Assembly (NCBI RefSeq): GCF_007489285.1
Contig: NZ_VLIY01000011.1
Span: forward strand, 1-64,000
Direction of reading: 5' to 3'
DNA: 64,000 bases
DNA from: Skermania sp. ID1734
GTDB taxonomy: Bacteria > Actinomycetota > Actinomycetes > Mycobacteriales > Mycobacteriaceae
The position numbers were made by a program, and so were the translations under genes. A model generated the notes under the pieces. That model ran no database searches. It was not told the origin of the DNA and worked only from the letters and a program-made list of their open reading frames with translations. Below are positions 1 through 23,167 of the stretch, one piece after another. Each line of letters starts with the position of its first letter. Positions within the stretch are counted from its first letter, which is position 1.

Positions 1-299
1 ACCCCACCGAGCGGCTCAACCGAGAGATCCGCCGCCGCACCGACGTCGTGGGCATCTTCCCCAACCGAGATGCCATCGTCCGCCTCATCGGCGCCGTCCT
101 TGCCGAGCAGACCGACGAATGGGCCGAAGGACGCCGATACCTCGGACTCGAAGTCCTGGGCCGCTGCCGACTCACCCTGACCACCGACACCGACACCAGC
201 TCGCAGACGGAGGTGACCACTGATGCACTGATGCAACTACCCGCCTGATCACCAACGAAGGATCACAATTCAGTTACACCACTTCTAGGGGCTTGACCG
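1..299 (+). mobile_element. IS256-family insertion sequence, right end only
   Basis: The window opens inside an IS256-like (mutator-type) element. The transposase C-terminus ends at 248, and about 50 bp follow that resemble the usual non-coding right end of such elements in mycobacteria, closing near the motif ggggcttgacc at 288-298. The left end lies outside the window, so the terminal inverted repeat cannot be checked and the exact boundary (about 298-300) is inferred. The element abuts a Fic-domain gene whose open frame runs back into the IS end, which suggests insertion into that gene. Confidence 0.6.
3..248 (+). CDS. IS256-family transposase, C-terminal fragment (cut by window edge)
   Basis: The frame is open from the first bases of the window. 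It begins [20 protein letters not shown], the conserved C-terminal block of IS256/mutator-type transposases, where the glutamate of the DDE triad lies just upstream. The product cuts and pastes its own element. Only about 80 residues are visible. The tail is Thr/Asp-rich and ends MQLPA. The 5' part lies outside the window, so whether the gene is intact cannot be judged. Confidence 0.85.
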
Positions 300-7753: not shown

Positions 7754-8974
7754 ATGCCGTGCCGAACGACTCACGTGCGCGCACTGTCGACCGTTCTCAC
7801 CGCTGTCCTGGCCACCGGTATCGTGGCCGCCGCCCCTGCACTGACGGATCCGCCGCCCGCCGCGGCCGCGCCCATCTATCCCGCGCCCGATCCCGATGGC
7901 TTCTACGCGCCGACGCCGGACCTCGCCGGGCACGCCAACGGCGACGTACTGCGCTCGCGCACGTTCGGGTCCGCGATGTTCCCGGGCGCGACGATCTGGC
8001 AGCTCGCCTATCGGTCGACGAACTCCAGCGGGGCGCCGATCGTCGGCGTCACCACCGTGCTGCTCCCGATCGGTGGCGGCGCGAACCGGCCGCTCGTCTC
8101 CTATCAGCCCTACATCAATTCCCTTGGGCTGCAGTGCGCGCCGTCGCACACCCTTTTCAATGGCGGGCTGCCCGAGGCGCCCGCGATCAATGCGTTGCTC
8201 GCCCGCGGCTGGGCCGTCGCCGTGCCGGATCACCTCGGACCGACGAGTGCCTATGGCGCCGCCCGACTCGGTGGGCAACTGGTTCTCGACGGCATCCGGG
8301 CCGTCAAGCGGTTCGGACCTGCCGACCTGGGCGGGAGTCCGGTGGCCATGACCGGTTACTCCGGTGGCGGAATGGCCACCGGTTGGGCCGCCGCCCTCGC
8401 TCCGACGTACGCGCCGGAGTTGCCGCTGGTCGGAGCGGCGATGGGCGGCGTGCCCGTGAACATCGGTCAACTCGCGGTGGACCTTGGTGGTTCACCAAAT
8501 CCGTTGTTCGGCCTCGGTTTCGCCGCGGCGCTGGGCCTCGAGCGGGAGTATCCGGGCCAGATGGACATCAGCGACCGGCTCACGCCGCGGGGAATCGACC
8601 TGCGCAACCGCATCGCCAATGCCTGCGCGGACACGATCATTTCCGACGGCGCCAACTTGAGCTATCCGCAGGTGGCCACATCAACGCCGCGGTCGGACGC
8701 GGCCGCCAACGCGGTACTCAACGCCAACAGTCTGCAGCTCTACCCGGGCGTGCCACGGATTCCGATCTACGAATGGCACGGCAGTGCCGATCAAGTGCCG
8801 ATGGCGCTGGCACAAAACATGGCCGGGCGATACTGCGCGGCGGGTGTGCCTGTGCTGTTCGACGTCATACCCGGCGCCGATCACGGGGCCGCCACCGCAC
8901 CGGGCGCGATGCGGGCGTTCGGCTGGATCGGCGACCGATTCGCTGGAATGCCGGCCCCCAGCAACTGTGCGTGA
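7754..8974 (+). CDS. Secreted lipase (LIP family, PF03583-like)
   Basis: About 406 residues with a signal peptide (VRALSTVLTAVLATGIVAAA, cleavage likely in the following PPPAAAAP region). The alpha/beta-hydrolase fold has the nucleophile elbow GYSGGG, an acid in GSADQVP and a histidine in GADHG. The architecture matches secretory lipases of actinobacteria and Candida that hydrolyse triacylglycerols. A GTG 21 bp downstream is an alternative start and would free the overlap with the divergent LON-domain gene. A perfect bidirectional hairpin (8966-9007) ends the gene. Confidence 0.85.
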   Translation: MPCRTTHVRALSTVLTAVLATGIVAAAPALTDPPPAAAAPIYPAPDPDGFYAPTPDLAGHANGDVLRSRTFGSAMFPGATIWQLAYRSTNSSGAPIVGVTTVLLPIGGGANRPLVSYQPYINSLGLQCAPSHTLFNGGLPEAPAINALLARGWAVAVPDHLGPTSAYGAARLGGQLVLDGIRAVKRFGPADLGGSPVAMTGYSGGGMATGWAAALAPTYAPELPLVGAAMGGVPVNIGQLAVDLGGSPNPLFGLGFAAALGLEREYPGQMDISDRLTPRGIDLRNRIANACADTIISDGANLSYPQVATSTPRSDAAANAVLNANSLQLYPGVPRIPIYEWHGSADQVPMALAQNMAGRYCAAGVPVLFDVIPGADHGAATAPGAMRAFGWIGDRFAGMPAPSNCA

Positions 8975-9007
8975 TTTTCCACCGCGGGCGGTGGAAAATC
9001 ACGCACA
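8966..9007. terminator. Perfect 20-bp inverted repeat, bidirectional terminator
   Basis: Two perfectly complementary 20-nt arms (8966-8985 and 8988-9007) are separated by only 2 nt. The arms contain GATTTTCC/GGAAAATC, which gives T-runs on both strands. It lies between the convergent lipase and MFS exporter genes and covers the lipase stop codon, so it probably stops transcription from both sides. Confidence 0.8.
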
Positions 9008-9012
9008 GGCCA

Positions 9013-10494
9013 TCAGAGAACGACCGGTTCACCCTCGGTGGCCGGCAACTCGTTGCGCAACACCAACGCGGCAACAACAGCGCCCACCAGGAAGAACCCA
9101 CTTGCCCACCAGAAGGTGGCCGTGTAGCTGTGCACCGCGGCCTGGGCCATGACGAGCTGGTTGGGCATCTTGCCGGTCATGAAGTTGGTGGCCGCCGTGG
9201 CCGCGATCGTGCTCAGCAGAGCGGTGCCGATCGAGCCGCCGACCTGCTGCATCGTGTTGATCGTCGCCGAGGCCACACCGGCGTCCTCATGCTCGACACC
9301 CGCGGTCGCGCCCTGGAACGCGGTGGCCATCGCGGCACCAAGGCCCAGACCCATCGCGACGATGCCCGGCAGCACGTGGCTGGCATAGGACGTTTCCACA
9401 CCGATCGAGGTGAGCAGCGCCATGCCGAGGGCGGCCACCGCGAGCCCGGACGACATCACGATTCGCGGGCCGACACGCGGCAGCATCTGCGGCGCGATCA
9501 CCGTCGAGGACACGATCATCGCGGCCACCATGGGCAGGAAGGCGATACCGGTGACGATCGGCGTGAAGCCGCGGATCAACTGCAGGTAGTAGGTGAGGAA
9601 CAAGAACACCGCGAACATGCCTGCACCGGTGACGAACACGGCGAAGTAGGCGCCCGCACGCGTCCGGTCGAGCAGGATCCGCATCGGCAGCAGCGGGTGC
9701 GCAACGCGGGTTTCCAGGTAGACGAAGACCGCCAGCAACACCGCACCCGCGGCCAGCCAGCCGATCGTCGAGCCGGATGACCAGCCGTCGGTCTCGGCCT
9801 GCGAGAAGCCGTAGACGATGCTGAACAGCGCCGCACTCACGGTGAGCGTTCCCGGCAGATCCAGCTTCGGCCGCTCGGTGGCGACGTGCTTGGCCAACAA
9901 CGCCACTGCGCCGACCAGCGCAACGGCCGCAAAAACCAGGTTCACATACAGCGACCAGCGCCACGACGCCCATTCGGTGAGCGCACCGCCCAGCAGCAGA
10001 CCGATCGCGCCGCCGGCACCGGCGACCGCGCCGAACACGCCAAAGGCCTTGGCGCGCTCGGACGAATCGGTGAAGGTCACCGTGAGCAGCGACAGCGCGG
10101 CGGGCGCCAGCAGGGCACCGAACACGCCCTGACCAGCCCGGGCGATCACGAGCATTTCGAAGCTGGTCGCGGCGCCGCCGACCGCCGAAGCGACTGCGAA
10201 GCCGATCAGCCCGATGATGAAGGTGGTGCGCCGGCCGAACAGGTCGCTGAGGCGTCCACCGAGCAGCAGCAGGCTGCCGAACGCCAGCGCGTAGGCGGTG
10301 ACAACCCACTGCCGGTCGGCGTCGGAGAAGCCGAGCGAGTGCTGCGCCGCCGGCAGCGCGATATTCACGACGGTCGCGTCGAGCACGACCATCAACTGCG
10401 CGATGCCGAGGACACCGAGGATCCACCAACGCGCATTCGATTTTTCCGCGACGCCGGGCGTGGCCGACGTCGTCGTTTCCAGAGTGGTCGTCAT
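9013..10494 (-). CDS. MFS drug exporter, EmrB/QacA (DHA2, 14-TM) family
   Basis: About 493 residues with 14 predicted membrane helices. The N-terminal segment LMVVLDATVVNIALP is the DHA2-family motif D1, and GGRLSDLFGRRTTF is motif A. Such proteins use the proton gradient to expel drugs, dyes or antiseptics. The ATG at 10494 is preceded by GAGGG. The gene is divergent from a TetR regulator, and two inverted copies of a 19-bp operator-like sequence lie in the shared promoter, so TetR repression is very likely. Confidence 0.93.
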   Translation of the reverse strand: MTTTLETTTSATPGVAEKSNARWWILGVLGIAQLMVVLDATVVNIALPAAQHSLGFSDADRQWVVTAYALAFGSLLLLGGRLSDLFGRRTTFIIGLIGFAVASAVGGAATSFEMLVIARAGQGVFGALLAPAALSLLTVTFTDSSERAKAFGVFGAVAGAGGAIGLLLGGALTEWASWRWSLYVNLVFAAVALVGAVALLAKHVATERPKLDLPGTLTVSAALFSIVYGFSQAETDGWSSGSTIGWLAAGAVLLAVFVYLETRVAHPLLPMRILLDRTRAGAYFAVFVTGAGMFAVFLFLTYYLQLIRGFTPIVTGIAFLPMVAAMIVSSTVIAPQMLPRVGPRIVMSSGLAVAALGMALLTSIGVETSYASHVLPGIVAMGLGLGAAMATAFQGATAGVEHEDAGVASATINTMQQVGGSIGTALLSTIAATAATNFMTGKMPNQLVMAQAAVHSYTATFWWASGFFLVGAVVAALVLRNELPATEGEPVVL

Positions 10495-18897: not shown

Positions 18898-19751
18898 CGA
18901 TCCTGATCGAGACCTACACCCTGGCCAATGGTGTCGAGATCCCCAAGCTGGGGCTCGGCACCTGGTTCATCGATGATGACAACGCCGCGCAGGCAGTCCG
19001 TGACGCCGTGGAGATTGGCTACCGCAACATCGACACCGCCCAGGCCTACGGCAACGAACGCAGCGTCGGCGAGGGCGTGCGCACCGCGGCCGTGCCTCGC
19101 GACGAGCTGTTCGTCTCCACGAAGCTTGCCGCCGAAATCAAGGACTACGACAGCGCTGTCGCCGCGATCGACGGGTCACTGCAAAAGCTCGGGCTCGATT
19201 ACGTCGACCTGATGCTCATCCACAGTCCACAGCCTTGGAACGACTTCCGCGGCGGCGACTACGCCGACGGCAACCGGCAGGCCTGGCGCGCCCTCGAGGA
19301 CGCCTACAACGCCGGCAAGCTGCGGTCGATCGGGGTATCGAACTTCGAAGAAGCGGACCTGGAGAACATCCTGTCGAGTGGCACCGTAGCGCCCCACGTG
19401 AACCAATTGCTCGTGCATGCGGGAAATACCCCGGCTGACCTGTTGGCCTACTGCGAGGGCAGGAACATTCTCGTCGAGGCGTATTCGCCGATCGCGCACG
19501 GGGAGATCCTCGAGAATGCAGACGTCGTGGCGATGTCCAAGAAGTACGGCGTGAGCGTGCCGCAGTTATGCATCCGCTACACGCTGCAGCTGGGCACCGT
19601 GTCCTTGCCCAAGACCGCCAACCCCGAGCACATGCGTTCCAACGCCGAGGTCGACTTCGTCATCTCGGATGCGGATATGGACGCACTGCGGAACCTGCAT
19701 GCCCGGGACTATGGCGACTCCAGCGTGTTCCCTGTCTACAGCGGCAAGTAG
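18894..19751 (+). CDS. Aldo-keto reductase
   Basis: 285 residues. The catalytic tetrad of the family is complete: D and Y in IDTAQAYGNE, K in VSTKLA, H in LIHSP. SVPQLCIRYTLQLG and LPKTANPEHM form the NADPH-binding end. It reduces carbonyl compounds with NADPH. It is translationally coupled to the cupin gene (ATGA), so it belongs to the operon starting at 16660. The operon ends here, 32 bp before a sequence related to the ssrA 3' flank. Confidence 0.9.
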   Translation: MTILIETYTLANGVEIPKLGLGTWFIDDDNAAQAVRDAVEIGYRNIDTAQAYGNERSVGEGVRTAAVPRDELFVSTKLAAEIKDYDSAVAAIDGSLQKLGLDYVDLMLIHSPQPWNDFRGGDYADGNRQAWRALEDAYNAGKLRSIGVSNFEEADLENILSSGTVAPHVNQLLVHAGNTPADLLAYCEGRNILVEAYSPIAHGEILENADVVAMSKKYGVSVPQLCIRYTLQLGTVSLPKTANPEHMRSNAEVDFVISDADMDALRNLHARDYGDSSVFPVYSGK

Positions 19752-19783
19752 CAACCCGCTCTGGACCGCAACTGTCCACATAC

Positions 19784-19892
19784 CAGAAACCTCCTTGCCG
19801 ACTTATCCGCGAGTGCCACGCCACCGGTGACACTTTCGCGCATCGAAAAGGGGTCTCAGATATGAGGTTATTTGAATCTCGGCAGTGGAGCT
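19784..19892 (-). repeat. Degenerate copy of the ssrA 3' flank (left boundary of island)
   Basis: Two blocks match 22556-22665 with nearly equal spacing: cagaaacctccttgccgac (19784-19802), and ggggtctcagatatgagg followed by agtggagct (about 19850-19892). The last block corresponds to the 3' terminal bases of tmRNA. The middle has diverged. I read this as a decayed att copy left by integration at ssrA. The stretch between the upstream aldo-keto reductase gene and tcmP (19752-20062, 311 bp) contains nothing else that I recognise. Confidence 0.6.
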
Positions 19893-20062
19893 AACTGTCG
19901 TATTCACGACCGTCTCTAAACCTACCGGGCACCCTGAATGAACTGCGCCCCGCTAGCCGGTGGGAATTGACGGCCGCGGCGGCGCGCCTACGCACGGCGG
20001 GCAGCAAACCGTGCCTACGCTTCGGACAAGGCCCACAAGGCGCGGGATCGGGAGGCGAAGCG

Positions 20063-21052
20063 GTGAGTGGTCGGGGGTGGGGACCTTGGTCCCGAATCAA
20101 GCTGGAAGCGCTGTCGGACTATCTGAACGCGTTCACGCGGGCATCGAAGACGGCGAGATACACGCTCTACCTCGACCTGTTCGCCGGCGCCCCCGACAAC
20201 TTCGAGCGCGGCACCGGCAACGTCATCCTCGGCTCCGGCCACCGGGCACTATCGACTGATCCTCCTTTCGATCGAGTCGTGCTTTGCGAACTCCAGCAGC
20301 GCACCGCAGACACCTTGCGCAAGAAGCTGGAGGCCGCGCACCCAAATCGGTATCTCGTGGTCCTGCCCGGCGACTGCAACGTCGAGATCCCGAAGTACCT
20401 CAACGCCTACGACCTCAGCTGGCGACGCGGTGCGGCTGTGTTTGCGATGGTCGATCAGTACAGCGCCGAAATCACCTGGGACACACTCAGTTACCTCGCA
20501 AGTTGGCGGCAGAACCGGCGCGGATTCAAGGTGGAGCTGTGGCTCTACTTCGGCCACGCGCTACTGCCCCGGGGTCTCCAGTTCACCGGCGACGAACCCG
20601 ATCCTAGGTACGCGCAGCGCGTGGACCGGATGTTCGGCACGCCCCAGTGGCGTGAGCTGTGGCGGGCACGCCGGGATCGCTTGCTCAACGCCGAACAGTT
20701 CCGCAACGAACTGGTAAACCTCATGCGGTGGCGGCTAGAGAAGGAGCTGGGCTACGCGACCACGATCCCGCTCGAGTTCACGAACACGAACGGCCACCCG
20801 ATTTACACGGTGATCTTCGCATCGGCGAACGCGACCGGTAACAAGATCATGGAGTCAGTGTTCGCCAAGCACGGCGTAGCACTTGAGAAGATGCGCACTA
20901 CCAGGAAAGTCGAACGACGGGTCGCGAAAGATAGGGACGAGGGCCTGTTCGGTACAGAAGAGCTCGTCGAGCTGGCGACCAAGGCACCCGTCCGCGAACC
21001 GCTGGCACCACCGGTCGAACCGATGCGGTACGAGCCGGACGATCATGCCTAG
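20063..21052 (+). CDS. tcmP: Three-Cys-motif partner protein (TcmP family)
   Basis: 329 residues. The N-terminal YTLYLDLFAGAPDNFERGTGNVILGSG, with an acidic/glycine-rich loop reminiscent of SAM-dependent methyltransferases, and the later LWLYFGHALLPRG match the TcmP family. The family is named after its frequent neighbours, the three-cysteine DUF5131/Gp37-Gp68 proteins; its biochemical role is not established. The GTG at 20063 has GGAGG 8 nt upstream; earlier ATGs in frame lack a Shine-Dalgarno. It converges on, and overlaps by 4 bp, exactly such a partner gene. Both lie in the ssrA-linked island. Confidence 0.85.
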   Translation: MSGRGWGPWSRIKLEALSDYLNAFTRASKTARYTLYLDLFAGAPDNFERGTGNVILGSGHRALSTDPPFDRVVLCELQQRTADTLRKKLEAAHPNRYLVVLPGDCNVEIPKYLNAYDLSWRRGAAVFAMVDQYSAEITWDTLSYLASWRQNRRGFKVELWLYFGHALLPRGLQFTGDEPDPRYAQRVDRMFGTPQWRELWRARRDRLLNAEQFRNELVNLMRWRLEKELGYATTIPLEFTNTNGHPIYTVIFASANATGNKIMESVFAKHGVALEKMRTTRKVERRVAKDRDEGLFGTEELVELATKAPVREPLAPPVEPMRYEPDDHA

Positions 21053-21795
21053 CCGGTTGCGGCTGTGGGCATCTCGTTCCAGAGCTGACCGTCGAGTTCT
21101 CGACCGAGCGCCTTCGGGGTACGGCCACCCCACTGCTTGAAGAAGAACGGCACACCTTCTTTACGGCAGGCGTCGCGAATCCCGCGCGCCCAGGACAGCT
21201 CCATCGGCCGGTACCGGGGACCGGACTCACCGCCGGCGATTACCCAGCCGATGCCCGAGAGGTCGATCCCGTCCAACGGACCCAGTAGCGGCTCGCAGGA
21301 CAAGAATCGGACCGCGGCGGGCACCTCCCGAATGTGGTCAACGCGGCTCAGGACGTCGGAGCTCTCCACCGAGACACCCATCCACACGTTCGGCGGCCAG
21401 TCGAGTTTCTCCGCGACGCGGCGCAACCTCAAACTGCGCTTGGTTAACACCTGATACGTGTGCTGCGGGGTGTCGCGGCAGACGTCAAACACGTCGCGGA
21501 TGAAGTTGAGCGGCACACGGGCGTGGAAGAGGTCGCTCATCGAGTTCACGAACACCACCCGGGAATTCTTCCAGCGCAGGGGTTCGCCGAGCGCCAGCGG
21601 GTGCACAGTCACACCGAACCCCGGTCCGGAGGTACGAGGGTCTCCGTCGATCTGGTACTTCACCGAGCCCATTGCCTTGAGCCGCTTGGCCAGCGTCATC
21701 GCGTAGCAGTGATCGCAGCCGGCGGAGACTCGATCGCAGCCTGTCACAGGGTTCCAGGTCGCCTCTGTCCACTCGATAGCCGATCTGTCCGCCAT
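21049..21795 (-). CDS. Phage Gp37/Gp68-family (DUF5131) three-cysteine protein, radical-SAM-like
   Basis: 248 residues opening MADRSAIEWTEATWNPVTGC. Cysteines at 20, 27 and 30 (CDRVSAGCDHCYA) form the three-Cys motif that gives the family its link to radical-SAM-like iron-sulfur enzymes. KSRVVFVNSMSDLFH and VWMGVSVES are also typical of the family. GEESGP-like GGESGPRYRPM lies near the C-terminus. It is common on phages and islands; its substrate is unknown. GAGGAGAG precedes the ATG. The gene is convergent with tcmP; a tail-to-tail rather than operonic arrangement is notable. Confidence 0.85.
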   Translation of the reverse strand: MADRSAIEWTEATWNPVTGCDRVSAGCDHCYAMTLAKRLKAMGSVKYQIDGDPRTSGPGFGVTVHPLALGEPLRWKNSRVVFVNSMSDLFHARVPLNFIRDVFDVCRDTPQHTYQVLTKRSLRLRRVAEKLDWPPNVWMGVSVESSDVLSRVDHIREVPAAVRFLSCEPLLGPLDGIDLSGIGWVIAGGESGPRYRPMELSWARGIRDACRKEGVPFFFKQWGGRTPKALGRELDGQLWNEMPTAATG

Positions 21796-22192
21796 CGGGC
21801 TCTCCTCACCTGCGGGTTTCCTACTGTCGCAGTCACTCTATGGTTACCCACCGACATGCTCTCTGATGCAGTTGAGACCGGTGTGTCGAAAGTGACCAAT
21901 GCGCCGGACCTCCACCAGGTGGCGGGTTCTCCTGCCTGAACCGCTGGAATTGAACTGCATCACATTGTCGAAATGGTCTTGGTCTGCCTGCGAACGGCGC
22001 AACCTGCGCTCACCGGATTCCCTCTCACGGACTCGGTGCACATAGCCTCCCCGAGCCTCTTCAATATGGCTGGGCCGGAAGCCGCGAGACCGATAGCGCC
22101 GGACAATGCCGAACATTGTTCACAGCTCCGCCGCAGACATTAGCGTCGTCCTTCATCTCGCGAGGTCACTCCTCTCGCCGTCCCCGCCGGAT
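21796..22192 (-). other. Intergenic segment of the ssrA island, no supported gene
   Basis: About 400 bp between the DUF5131 gene and the integrase fossil. Short open frames exist on both strands (for example 21844-22116 minus), but they are Arg-rich and show no recognisable motif or convincing ribosome-binding site. The 5' side should hold the DUF5131 promoter. The rest is probably decayed island DNA. Confidence 0.5.
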
Positions 22193-22555
22193 TCACGTGA
22201 CGAGTTCGATTTCGGGCCCGTCCGATGCAATTCCGACCGTTGCCGCGGTGAGATCCAATTCCCCGCCGCGGCGCTAGCGTACGAACCGCAGCAGTCGGGT
22301 GAGGTAGCAGGTGTGGAAGTTCCGCAGGCTGTCGAGGTCGTAGGCGCGTTGACGCCACGCGGCCAGCAGGTAGGAGTTGAGTCAGTCGCAACCGTTCAGC
22401 GAGCCATCGTCGTCGACGATGAACGGCAGTCCGTCGGGGACATCGTGTCGGTTGAGCATTTCCACAACCGATGACCACGGGAGCGATGCCGCGCCGTCAG
22501 GAGCGCGCAGTATTTCGCCCGCACGGGCGCTTCTATGGACGACGACTATCCGCAT
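22193..22555 (-). pseudogene. Tyrosine-recombinase (integrase) N-terminal fossil
   Basis: Read from ATG 22555 on the minus strand, the frame gives a short N-terminal region ending GLPFIVDDDGSLNGCD. A TGA follows (22382-22384), then LNSYLLAAWRQRAYDLDSLR, NFHTCYLTRLLRFVR, a TAG (22274-22276), then RRGGELDLTAATVG. The segment LNSYLLAAWRQRAY...LTRLLRFV is the N-terminal SAM-like, core-binding domain typical of actinobacterial phage-type integrases. No catalytic domain (R...HxxR...Y) follows. Two in-frame stops and the missing C-terminus show that it is dead. Its position next to the ssrA att-like copy fits the integrase that once inserted the island. Confidence 0.7.
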
Positions 22556-22665
22556 ACAGAAACCTCCTCGCCGACTGTGCATCCAGTGGTATTCCACGGG
22601 TACAACACTTCTTGCTGTCGGCAAGGAGGTCTCAGATATGAAGTTGTGCGTTCAAAAGTGGAGCT
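22556..22665 (-). repeat. ssrA 3' flank, resident copy (right boundary of island)
   Basis: This is the counterpart of 19784-19892. It starts cagaaacctcctcgccgac and contains ggaggtctcagatatgaag, then aaaagtggagct, the tmRNA 3' end. Within it, cctcctcgccgac and gtcggcaaggagg (22563-22575 and 22617-22629) are nearly perfect inverted repeats about 40 nt apart. That makes a hairpin downstream of ssrA that could serve as its terminator. Confidence 0.6.
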
Positions 22666-23025
22666 GCCGGGAATCGAACCCGGGTCCTCCGCCGCGTCTC
22701 CAGGGCTTCTCCGTGTGCAGTTCGCTGTGTCTCTACTTGGATCTCCCGGTCTCGCGAACTAGCCGAGATGACGATCCCAGTCGCTGTTTGATGTTCCGCC
22801 CGCCTCCGCGACCGAGACGAACGGTGAGCCCTCTAGCTGATGCCAGTACCCGGACCGAGGGCGAACCCGGACTGACAGACACGCTCTACTGCTTAGGCAG
22901 CGAGAGCGTAGTCGCGCTGATTGGAATCGGCGCTTAATTGGTTGCAACGACGCTTACGGTGGTCTCTTGCCTGCACCGACACGCTTCCCCTAGATCAACG
23001 TACGCAGTCGAAACCGTTCAGCCCC
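22659..23025 (-). ncRNA. ssrA: tmRNA (transfer-messenger RNA)
   Basis: The 5' end GGGGCTGAACGGTTTCGACT and the 3' end GGTTCGATTCCCGGCAGCTCCA pair as the tRNA-like acceptor (GGGGCTG/CAGCTCC) with a canonical T-arm and discriminator A; CCA is not encoded. The resume codon and tag read ADSNQRDYALAA followed by TAA, preceded by alanine charged on the RNA. I recall this tag, or a one-residue variant, from mycobacteria. It frees stalled ribosomes together with SmpB, whose gene lies 2.7 kb to the right. The 3' end is the anchor of the 19.8-22.7 kb island. Confidence 0.97.
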
Positions 23026-23167
23026 GTACGCTCCGGCACCCTGCCGGACTGCTCAGTTTAACGTCGCAGCGCAGAAGTTTCATCCCGGTTTCCACCGAGT
23101 CGGCATACCGGGGATGAGGCGCGGGTACGCCTGCGAACGTAGTGGAACCGGCGGCAGGAGATGCCCG

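Follow-up and report, generated by a model that had tools for sequence, protein, structure and literature searches.

The question raised by this locus is what two facing genes, one for a TcmP protein and one for a DUF5131 (Gp37/Gp68) three-Cys protein, do together. They lie in the window, that is, the whole stretch of 64,000 nucleotides analyzed here from Skermania sp. ID1734, where tcmP occupies 20063..21052 on the forward strand (329 aa, GTG start) and the DUF5131 gene 21049..21795 on the reverse strand (248 aa). The preliminary description had named both families and regarded them as known to co-occur, and the profile searches agree on both counts. TcmP matched TIGR04474 at 157.5 bits against a curated cut-off of 53, and the DUF5131 protein matched PF07505 at 336.3 bits against a gathering cut-off of 28.9, over positions 2-243 of 243. 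At E≤1 no Pfam or PHROG family matched TcmP, and DUF5131 and GP88 were the only families listed for the other protein in the Pfam search. The PADLOC models designated TcmP as PDC-M41A (93.6 bits, E 4.9e-27) and the DUF5131 protein as PDC-M41B (355 bits, E 3.7e-107). The pairing is already known, since PADLOC lists it as the candidate phage defence system PDC-M41, whose two components are both matched here and adjacent. Anti-phage activity of PDC-M41 has candidate status only, and its models do not cover the damage promoter and the partner exchange described below. The window's pair is a typical representative of a combination that is known but uncharacterised, and the window's own genome contains a single copy of each gene according to the genome search.

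In the open PMC literature we found no paper on DUF5131 or PDC-M41, and none that joins radical SAM, phage defense, methyltransferase and DNA damage-inducible. The passages and abstracts examined held passing mentions only of the term “three-Cys-motif partner protein” and nothing on function under PF07505, TIGR04474 or Gp37Gp68; we know of no activity for TcmP or DUF5131. The answer that we favor, at somewhat less than an even chance, is a mobile, DNA-damage-induced two-enzyme module of the PDC-M41 type that modifies nucleic acid, most likely against phages or other mobile DNA. We infer this function, and the predicted folds, the operators and the partner exchange are its computed support.

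The two genes are convergent and overlap by 4 nt at their 3' ends (gap -4), as first described, with both TAG stop codons contained in one unstranded CTAG at 21049..21052. For comparison we took as relatives the 80 highest-scoring DUF5131 loci from a single genome scan; L001 and L002, which are copies of the window, were excluded from the counts on pair arrangement, and L018 and L080, where no TcmP was found, from all TcmP counts. TcmP was present in 78 of the 80 loci and within 306 nt in 77, and these 77 adjacent pairs comprise 65 convergent ones and 12 in tandem, DUF5131 before TcmP. Among the convergent pairs, 23 of 65 have the same 4-nt overlap. Moreover, the reading frames are intact, as had been noted, and dN/dS was 0.04-0.12 for DUF5131 (7 comparisons) and 0.06-0.15 for TcmP (5 comparisons, within the clades defined below). 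Both genes are therefore under purifying selection and not decaying.

Among 201 genomes of the family, DUF5131 was found in 15 and TcmP in nine, all nine within the fifteen, and a draw of 401 family genomes gave DUF5131 in 35. At the level of the phylum (296 genomes, counted by hand), DUF5131 occurred in 36 and TcmP in 37; 25 genomes had both, compared with 4.5 expected if the two were independent, 11 had DUF5131 only and 12 had TcmP only. Scores against a profile of the paired type separate the family's DUF5131 proteins: six with an adjacent TcmP reached at least 512 bits and eight without any TcmP had 156-275 bits. One protein with TcmP 1.4 kb away (L097) scored 532 bits, and two with TcmP about 4 kb away (L102 and L104) scored about 412 bits. 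Because the scores split with the presence of TcmP, a second, solo type of DUF5131 is indicated by these sequences.

The arrangement itself could suggest a toxin-antitoxin-like or lysogeny-maintenance pair: TcmP would modify host RNA, its toxicity held off by the action of DUF5131, and the 3' overlap of the convergent genes would couple their expression. The tight convergence with a shared stop in many relatives is in line with this, as are the absence of any terminator pattern between or around the two genes and the position of TcmP directly downstream of the repressor gene in the Gordonia phage Easley. (The pattern search of 19700-22700 returned neither a terminator nor a sigma-70 pattern.) We nevertheless hold such a pair to be very improbable, given the tandem order in 12 of the 80 relatives and on proteobacterial plasmids, the genomes with a single partner counted above, and three cases with two TcmPs per DUF5131, namely the Rhodococcus plasmid pUSK13_1, the family genome G177 and S. 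meliloti pSymA.

We further focused on the region upstream of DUF5131. At 21835..21857 on the reverse strand, 39 nt before the start codon, lies a predicted promoter motif of the RecA-NDp/PafBC type, ATGTCGGTGGGTAACCATAGAGT. It reads ATGTCGGTG-N8-TAGAGT and has one mismatch to the RecA-NDp consensus tTGTCRgtg-8 nt-TannnT (PMC5656591), through which PafBC acts (PMC6789036, PMC8223512). The window's own genome contains 70 sites with at most one mismatch, compared with 10 for the reversed pattern. Thirteen sites are perfect, and five of these precede genes that we recognised by eye as the repair genes recA, uvrA, uvrB, sbcD and recC; the genes behind the other eight are unlike classical repair genes or were not recognised. 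Two of the perfect motifs (L114 and L116, on contigs C20 and C30) stand before small genes unlike classical repair genes, which are possible candidates for further damage-induced accessory genes. The distance from motif to start codon is 39 nt for DUF5131 and 42 nt for recA. The DUF5131 gene thus carries a predicted DNA-damage (PafBC) promoter motif, sharing the motif and a recA-like spacing with the PafBC regulon of mycobacteria, and induction in the window is a prediction from this motif.

The motif core preceded DUF5131 in 21 of 79 loci, compared with 33 of 3950 random windows. The window was assigned to Mycobacteriaceae on the basis of its tmRNA, gene order and relatives. Taking as control the regions upstream of the loci's other genes, a PafBC site with at most two mismatches preceded 13 of the 27 DUF5131 genes of Mycobacteriaceae (control 7/276), a LexA box 7 (16/276), and one or the other 20 (23/276). 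The corresponding figures in other actinobacterial families were 4/52 for PafBC (control 10/485), 18/52 for LexA (10/485) and 21/52 for either (20/485); in all these comparisons some rows are related, such as the near-copies L006-L009, which makes p-values optimistic. Matches to the consensus LexA box were exact before DUF5131 in L014, L023, L024, L025, L065 and plasmid pUSK13_1. Fifteen further family regions, some from genomes already counted, included seven with a PafBC or LexA site at no more than two mismatches. Upstream of TcmP the PafBC motif was rarer (2/27), and LexA boxes numbered 4/27. Two different operators at different positions indicate repeated recruitment. Neither site was found before DUF5131 in 10 of the 12 phage and plasmid loci checked, including three Gordonia phages, and generic gamma- and alphaproteobacterial LexA patterns gave no match in the plasmid cases tried.

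The two genes of the pair differ greatly in how they vary among relatives. The window's DUF5131 protein is 92% identical to that of L003 and 90% to that of L005, while its TcmP is 18% and 34% identical, respectively, and shows no significant BLAST similarity to the TcmP of L003 (E 3.4). Clustering of the 79 TcmPs at E 1e-30 gave three groups, T1 with 32, T2 with 32 and T3 with 15 members including the window's. These merge into one at E 1e-10, so the TcmPs of T1-T3 are distant homologues. When L003 was compared with the window by blastn, the single match listed covered 21053..21858 at 82.8% identity over 810 columns, ending at the stop codon. This match delimits a conserved block on the reverse strand, 21053..21858, that contains the promoter motif and DUF5131. 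A similar site lies at -58 to -63 with TcmPs of T3 (window, L005, L010) and of T2 (L003, L006-L009, L011), so the promoter site goes with DUF5131 and not with the TcmP clade.

Mapped onto the 79-row tree of DUF5131 proteins, the TcmP clades require 22 changes, the minimum possible being 2. Shuffled clades gave a mean of 34.7 changes and none of 200 shuffles was as low as 22, so some association between DUF5131 and TcmP clade remains. For the 27 DUF5131 genes of Mycobacteriaceae there were 10 changes, compared with 12.2 in shuffles, 16 of 200 being as low. Trees of these genes that held each TcmP clade together were rejected (p-AU 6.6e-87 for T1, 3.3e-48 for T2 and 1.0e-49 for T3). DUF5131 tracks host family better, with 8 host-family changes compared with 17 for TcmP over 76 rows, from which L017, L025 and L077 with short TcmPs were left out. 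Promoter and DUF5131 form a conserved block, and the TcmP on its far side, from one of three deep clades, has been replaced time and again along the DUF5131 tree. We considered whether TcmP is simply hypervariable and rejected this, as dN/dS within clades is low and the divergence lies between clades.

To characterize the two proteins we turned to predicted structures. The DUF5131 model (pLDDT 81, pTM 0.81, with low confidence in the Cys region) shows the partial TIM-barrel fold of radical SAM enzymes. Its nearest structure in VIA-align was spore photoproduct lyase (Z 12.3 over 196 residues, 12% identity), and viperin-like enzymes (Z 10.8) and RlmN (Z 10.3) came next. The 32 best rows, with Z from 12.3 to 8.8, are all radical-SAM enzymes if we take their names at face value. 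Foldseek on its own was weak (best E 1.5e-3), and its first row was also spore photoproduct lyase. The preliminary description had likened C20, C27 and C30 to the cysteines of radical-SAM-like enzymes. This holds for their conservation, invariant in 49 of 49 aligned rows, and for the predicted fold, but not for the spacing, which is CX6CX2C where the canonical motif is CX3CX2C; non-canonical spacings exist within the radical SAM superfamily. Judging from the model, DUF5131 is probably a radical-SAM enzyme.

The TcmP model (pLDDT 90.5, pTM 0.89) lies nearest to two RNA base methyltransferases, RlmJ (Z 15.1) and then Trm1 (Z 14.4), and RlmJ was also first in Foldseek (E 1.6e-4). A methyltransferase-like N-terminal loop had been proposed for this protein, and it is borne out by the class I methyltransferase fold predicted for TcmP together with what we take to be a class I-like motif I. 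Motif IV differs from that of its structural neighbors, among which RlmJ-type N6-adenine methyltransferases have a DPP[YF]-type motif, and TcmP itself is without a Pfam match. The motif begins with DP in all 28 rows of T1, with DP in 11, DS in 11 and DG in 2 of the 24 rows of T2, and with DQ in all 13 rows of T3, window included, where Q replaces P and the DPP[YF] form is absent. Methylation by the window's TcmP is doubtful because its clade has DQ and not DP at this position; it may bind rather than methylate, or use other chemistry. In this respect the window differs from the TIGR04474/PF07505 three-Cys-motif pair, although it exceeds both cut-offs.

The fold and the promoter together give the main rival reading its strength, namely an accessory of DNA-lesion repair. 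DUF5131 would act as spore photoproduct lyase does, using radical chemistry to reverse a base lesion, TcmP would recognise or process that lesion, both would be made under damage, and mobility would reflect the spread of a stress-survival cassette. Spore photoproduct lyase is the nearest DUF5131 fold and shares the damage context; it differs in the 12% identity and the Cys spacing, and the pair adds a separate methyltransferase-like partner. The PafBC and LexA operators also fit repair, and the same motif precedes recA, uvrA and uvrB, as recognised by eye, in the same genome. A link to Mycobacterium tuberculosis would add to this if Rv2734 and Rv2735c were this pair. According to published work, Rv2734 and Rv2735c share a single mitomycin C cluster with recX and recA (PMC5057432), Rv2735c, 330 aa long (PMC9846648), is co-transcribed in part with recA-recX (PMC3062782), and BCG_2748c has a TcmP domain (PMC7387457). 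Six codons read from the published Rv2735c primer (PMC3062782) give KGTNAE, which is compatible with RGFKVE of the window's TcmP and far too short for identification. In none of the 80 relatives, nor in the 15 family regions retrieved, did recA adjoin the pair. For a repair enzyme, repeated swaps between deep TcmP clades would be odd, as would carriage beside phage immunity genes, and the pair is missing from most family genomes. We consider a repair accessory possible, and distinctly less probable than the nucleic-acid-modification module.

The chromosomal setting in the window bears on mobility. An ssrA (tmRNA) gene, the probable insertion target, lies at 22658..23025 on the reverse strand (ARAGORN; Rfam RF00023, 143 bits), and tmRNA is the only RNA family found in 19700-23100. 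A flank of about 88 nt adjoining the 3' end of ssrA is duplicated, with an ssrA-proximal copy at 22557..22645 and a distal copy at 19784..19869 (both unstranded, by sequence comparison) that are 73% and 87% identical in two ungapped pieces; a second search recovered the duplication at E 7.8e-6. The segment had been described as bounded by a duplicated ssrA 3' flank. The duplication stands, but the distal copy is without the ssrA 3' end, so the repeat consists of flank only, and the two ends of the element are not marked by att-type repeats of the ssrA 3' end. Of the 59 other family genomes with a match, 58 matched only as far as the end of ssrA (query base 373 or 374) and the remaining one (G026) only to base 341; the downstream flank is therefore peculiar to the window's genome in that set. 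A 22-nt anchor matched 21 of 24 ssrA loci of other genomes, where the sequence after ssrA differs from the window and is mostly a terminator-like hairpin by eye. The window has the inserted flank directly after ssrA at 22557-22645 in place of that usual hairpin. Because of the duplicated flank and the other sequence and hairpin in relatives, DNA has probably been inserted directly at ssrA, with the tcmP/DUF5131 pair as essentially its remaining cargo.

A broken reading frame at 22277..22555 on the reverse strand, putative and interrupted by in-frame stops, had been read as a dead integrase. This candidate lies where such a relic would be expected, but the searches did not confirm it: its two open pieces, short at 57 and 35 aa, matched no Pfam family at E≤1, the 57-aa piece had no relative among 100 other family genomes, and nothing convincing was seen in the other loci compared. 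Of the earlier claim that the pair is retained while the integrase decays, the purifying selection on both genes remains and the integrase is not confirmed. Two side observations concern mobile DNA. Family genome G038, unlike the window, does hold a second ssrA 3' end, a copy of 62 nt some 40 kb away from ssrA (contig C1, 404132-404193), as a large element integrated at that gene would leave, and the first gene of the window (3-245, forward strand) matches phage-type transposase families.

Mobility is also seen in near-identical segments and in phage and plasmid carriage. The four genome records L006-L009, under different species names, are 99.9-100% identical over 5.5-13 kb around the pair, which suggests very recent transfer. 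Relatives of DUF5131 were found in 161 of 50,697 phage records and 407 of 72,556 plasmid records, and relatives of the window's TcmP in only 5 phage records. Three Gordonia phages, Jablanski, Easley and BaxterFox, carry the pair with the integrase on one side and the immunity repressor on the other; in the latter two TcmP comes immediately after the repressor gene, on its strand. In BaxterFox (L085) a full DUF5131 frame (8722-9750, forward strand, 542 bits) is unannotated, two hypothetical genes being annotated on the opposite strand. Among neighborhoods selected as examples from the match lists, plasmids carried the pair next to Wadjet-type genes, McrC and N-6 methylase genes or Abi genes, or with an integrase directly before it; other plasmids had no such neighbors. 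The pair is in tandem, DUF5131 before TcmP, on proteobacterial plasmids, and on pSymA, whose record carries no annotation, one TcmP follows an 852-codon frame, which we take to be hna, with a second TcmP and DUF5131 adjoining. SMa2245 Hna and SMa2243 TcmP appear together in a published expression table (PMC12445080).

Carriage of this kind could also mean self-modification or counter-defence of phages and plasmids, the pair modifying the nucleic acid of its carrier element and the chromosomal copies being remnants. The phage and plasmid records are in its favor, and so is the Nocardia farcinica plasmid pNF2 (L169, 4385-6849), where a DNA cytosine methyltransferase gene runs straight into DUF5131 with an overlap of a few bases, no TcmP being nearby; that methyltransferase is perhaps a second kind of DUF5131 partner. 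We regard self-modification as unlikely, as in the three Gordonia phages the pair sits with integrase and repressor and not in a lytic block, the chromosomal copies are under purifying selection with host damage operators, and the window's TcmP has so few phage relatives.

A role of the pair in defence had been proposed earlier. The PDC-M41 listing and single neighborhoods speak for it, but an enrichment of defence genes around the pair was not seen. At 1e-10, 47 PADLOC families (families, not proteins with a match) were found in 150 flanking genes and likewise 47 in 150 control genes. The flanking set holds 150 of 156 nearest neighbors, six from the near-copies L007-L009 being omitted, and the control consists of genes of the window's own genome, 95 of them from loci picked by the damage motif, so that it leans to DNA repair; the equal counts thus leave an enrichment undemonstrated rather than refuted. 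Mobile-element families among the 150 neighbors were integrase models (5), DNA invertase (2) and terminase (2), with Pfam integrase at 5; no integrase or terminase was among the 25 of 82 families listed for the control genes.

Returning to the nucleic-acid-modification module, a damage signal, such as single-stranded DNA in phage replication, would raise DUF5131, with PafBC as mediator here and LexA in many relatives. TcmP would choose the target by binding or methylating a base, DUF5131 would perform radical chemistry on that base or nucleic acid, and the modification would block the invader or protect host nucleic acid. We counted in its favor the adjacency in 77 of 80 loci, the patchy distribution, the phage and plasmid carriage, the PDC-M41 listing and the near-identical segments, together with the promoter motif and its enrichment, the partner exchange, the folds and the purifying selection. 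Counted against it were the PADLOC counts equal to the control, the Q in motif IV of T3, the CX6CX2C spacing, the low-confidence Cys region, the weak Foldseek result and the missing operator sites in 10 of 12 phage and plasmid loci; damage induction fits repair equally. Defence is favored because of mobility and partner exchange, and repair because of promoter and fold; the two are not mutually exclusive. A bolder version, which we hold as a conjecture slightly less probable than the repair accessory, is an immune module triggered by damage, whose constant radical-SAM enzyme, closest to a lyase that reverses DNA lesions, is re-aimed when whole methyltransferase-fold partners are swapped at the 3' end of its gene, under PafBC or LexA depending on the host.

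New here, on comparative grounds, is an apparent combination: a radical-SAM-like gene that stays constant and responds to damage, joined to a methyltransferase-like partner that is exchanged. The pair recurs on chromosomes, plasmids and phages and has no assigned function that we could find in the open PMC literature. The promoter, the constant gene and the exchanged partner make three points testable: the regulator, the nucleic acid that is changed, and TcmP as the setter of specificity. If the immune version is true, it would represent a new type of chemistry in defence, in which the nucleic acid of the invader undergoes radical modification or mis-repair and the subunit that sets specificity can be exchanged. 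Phage defence and DNA repair would be linked by a mobile, damage-induced module whose enzyme folds like a radical-SAM lyase.
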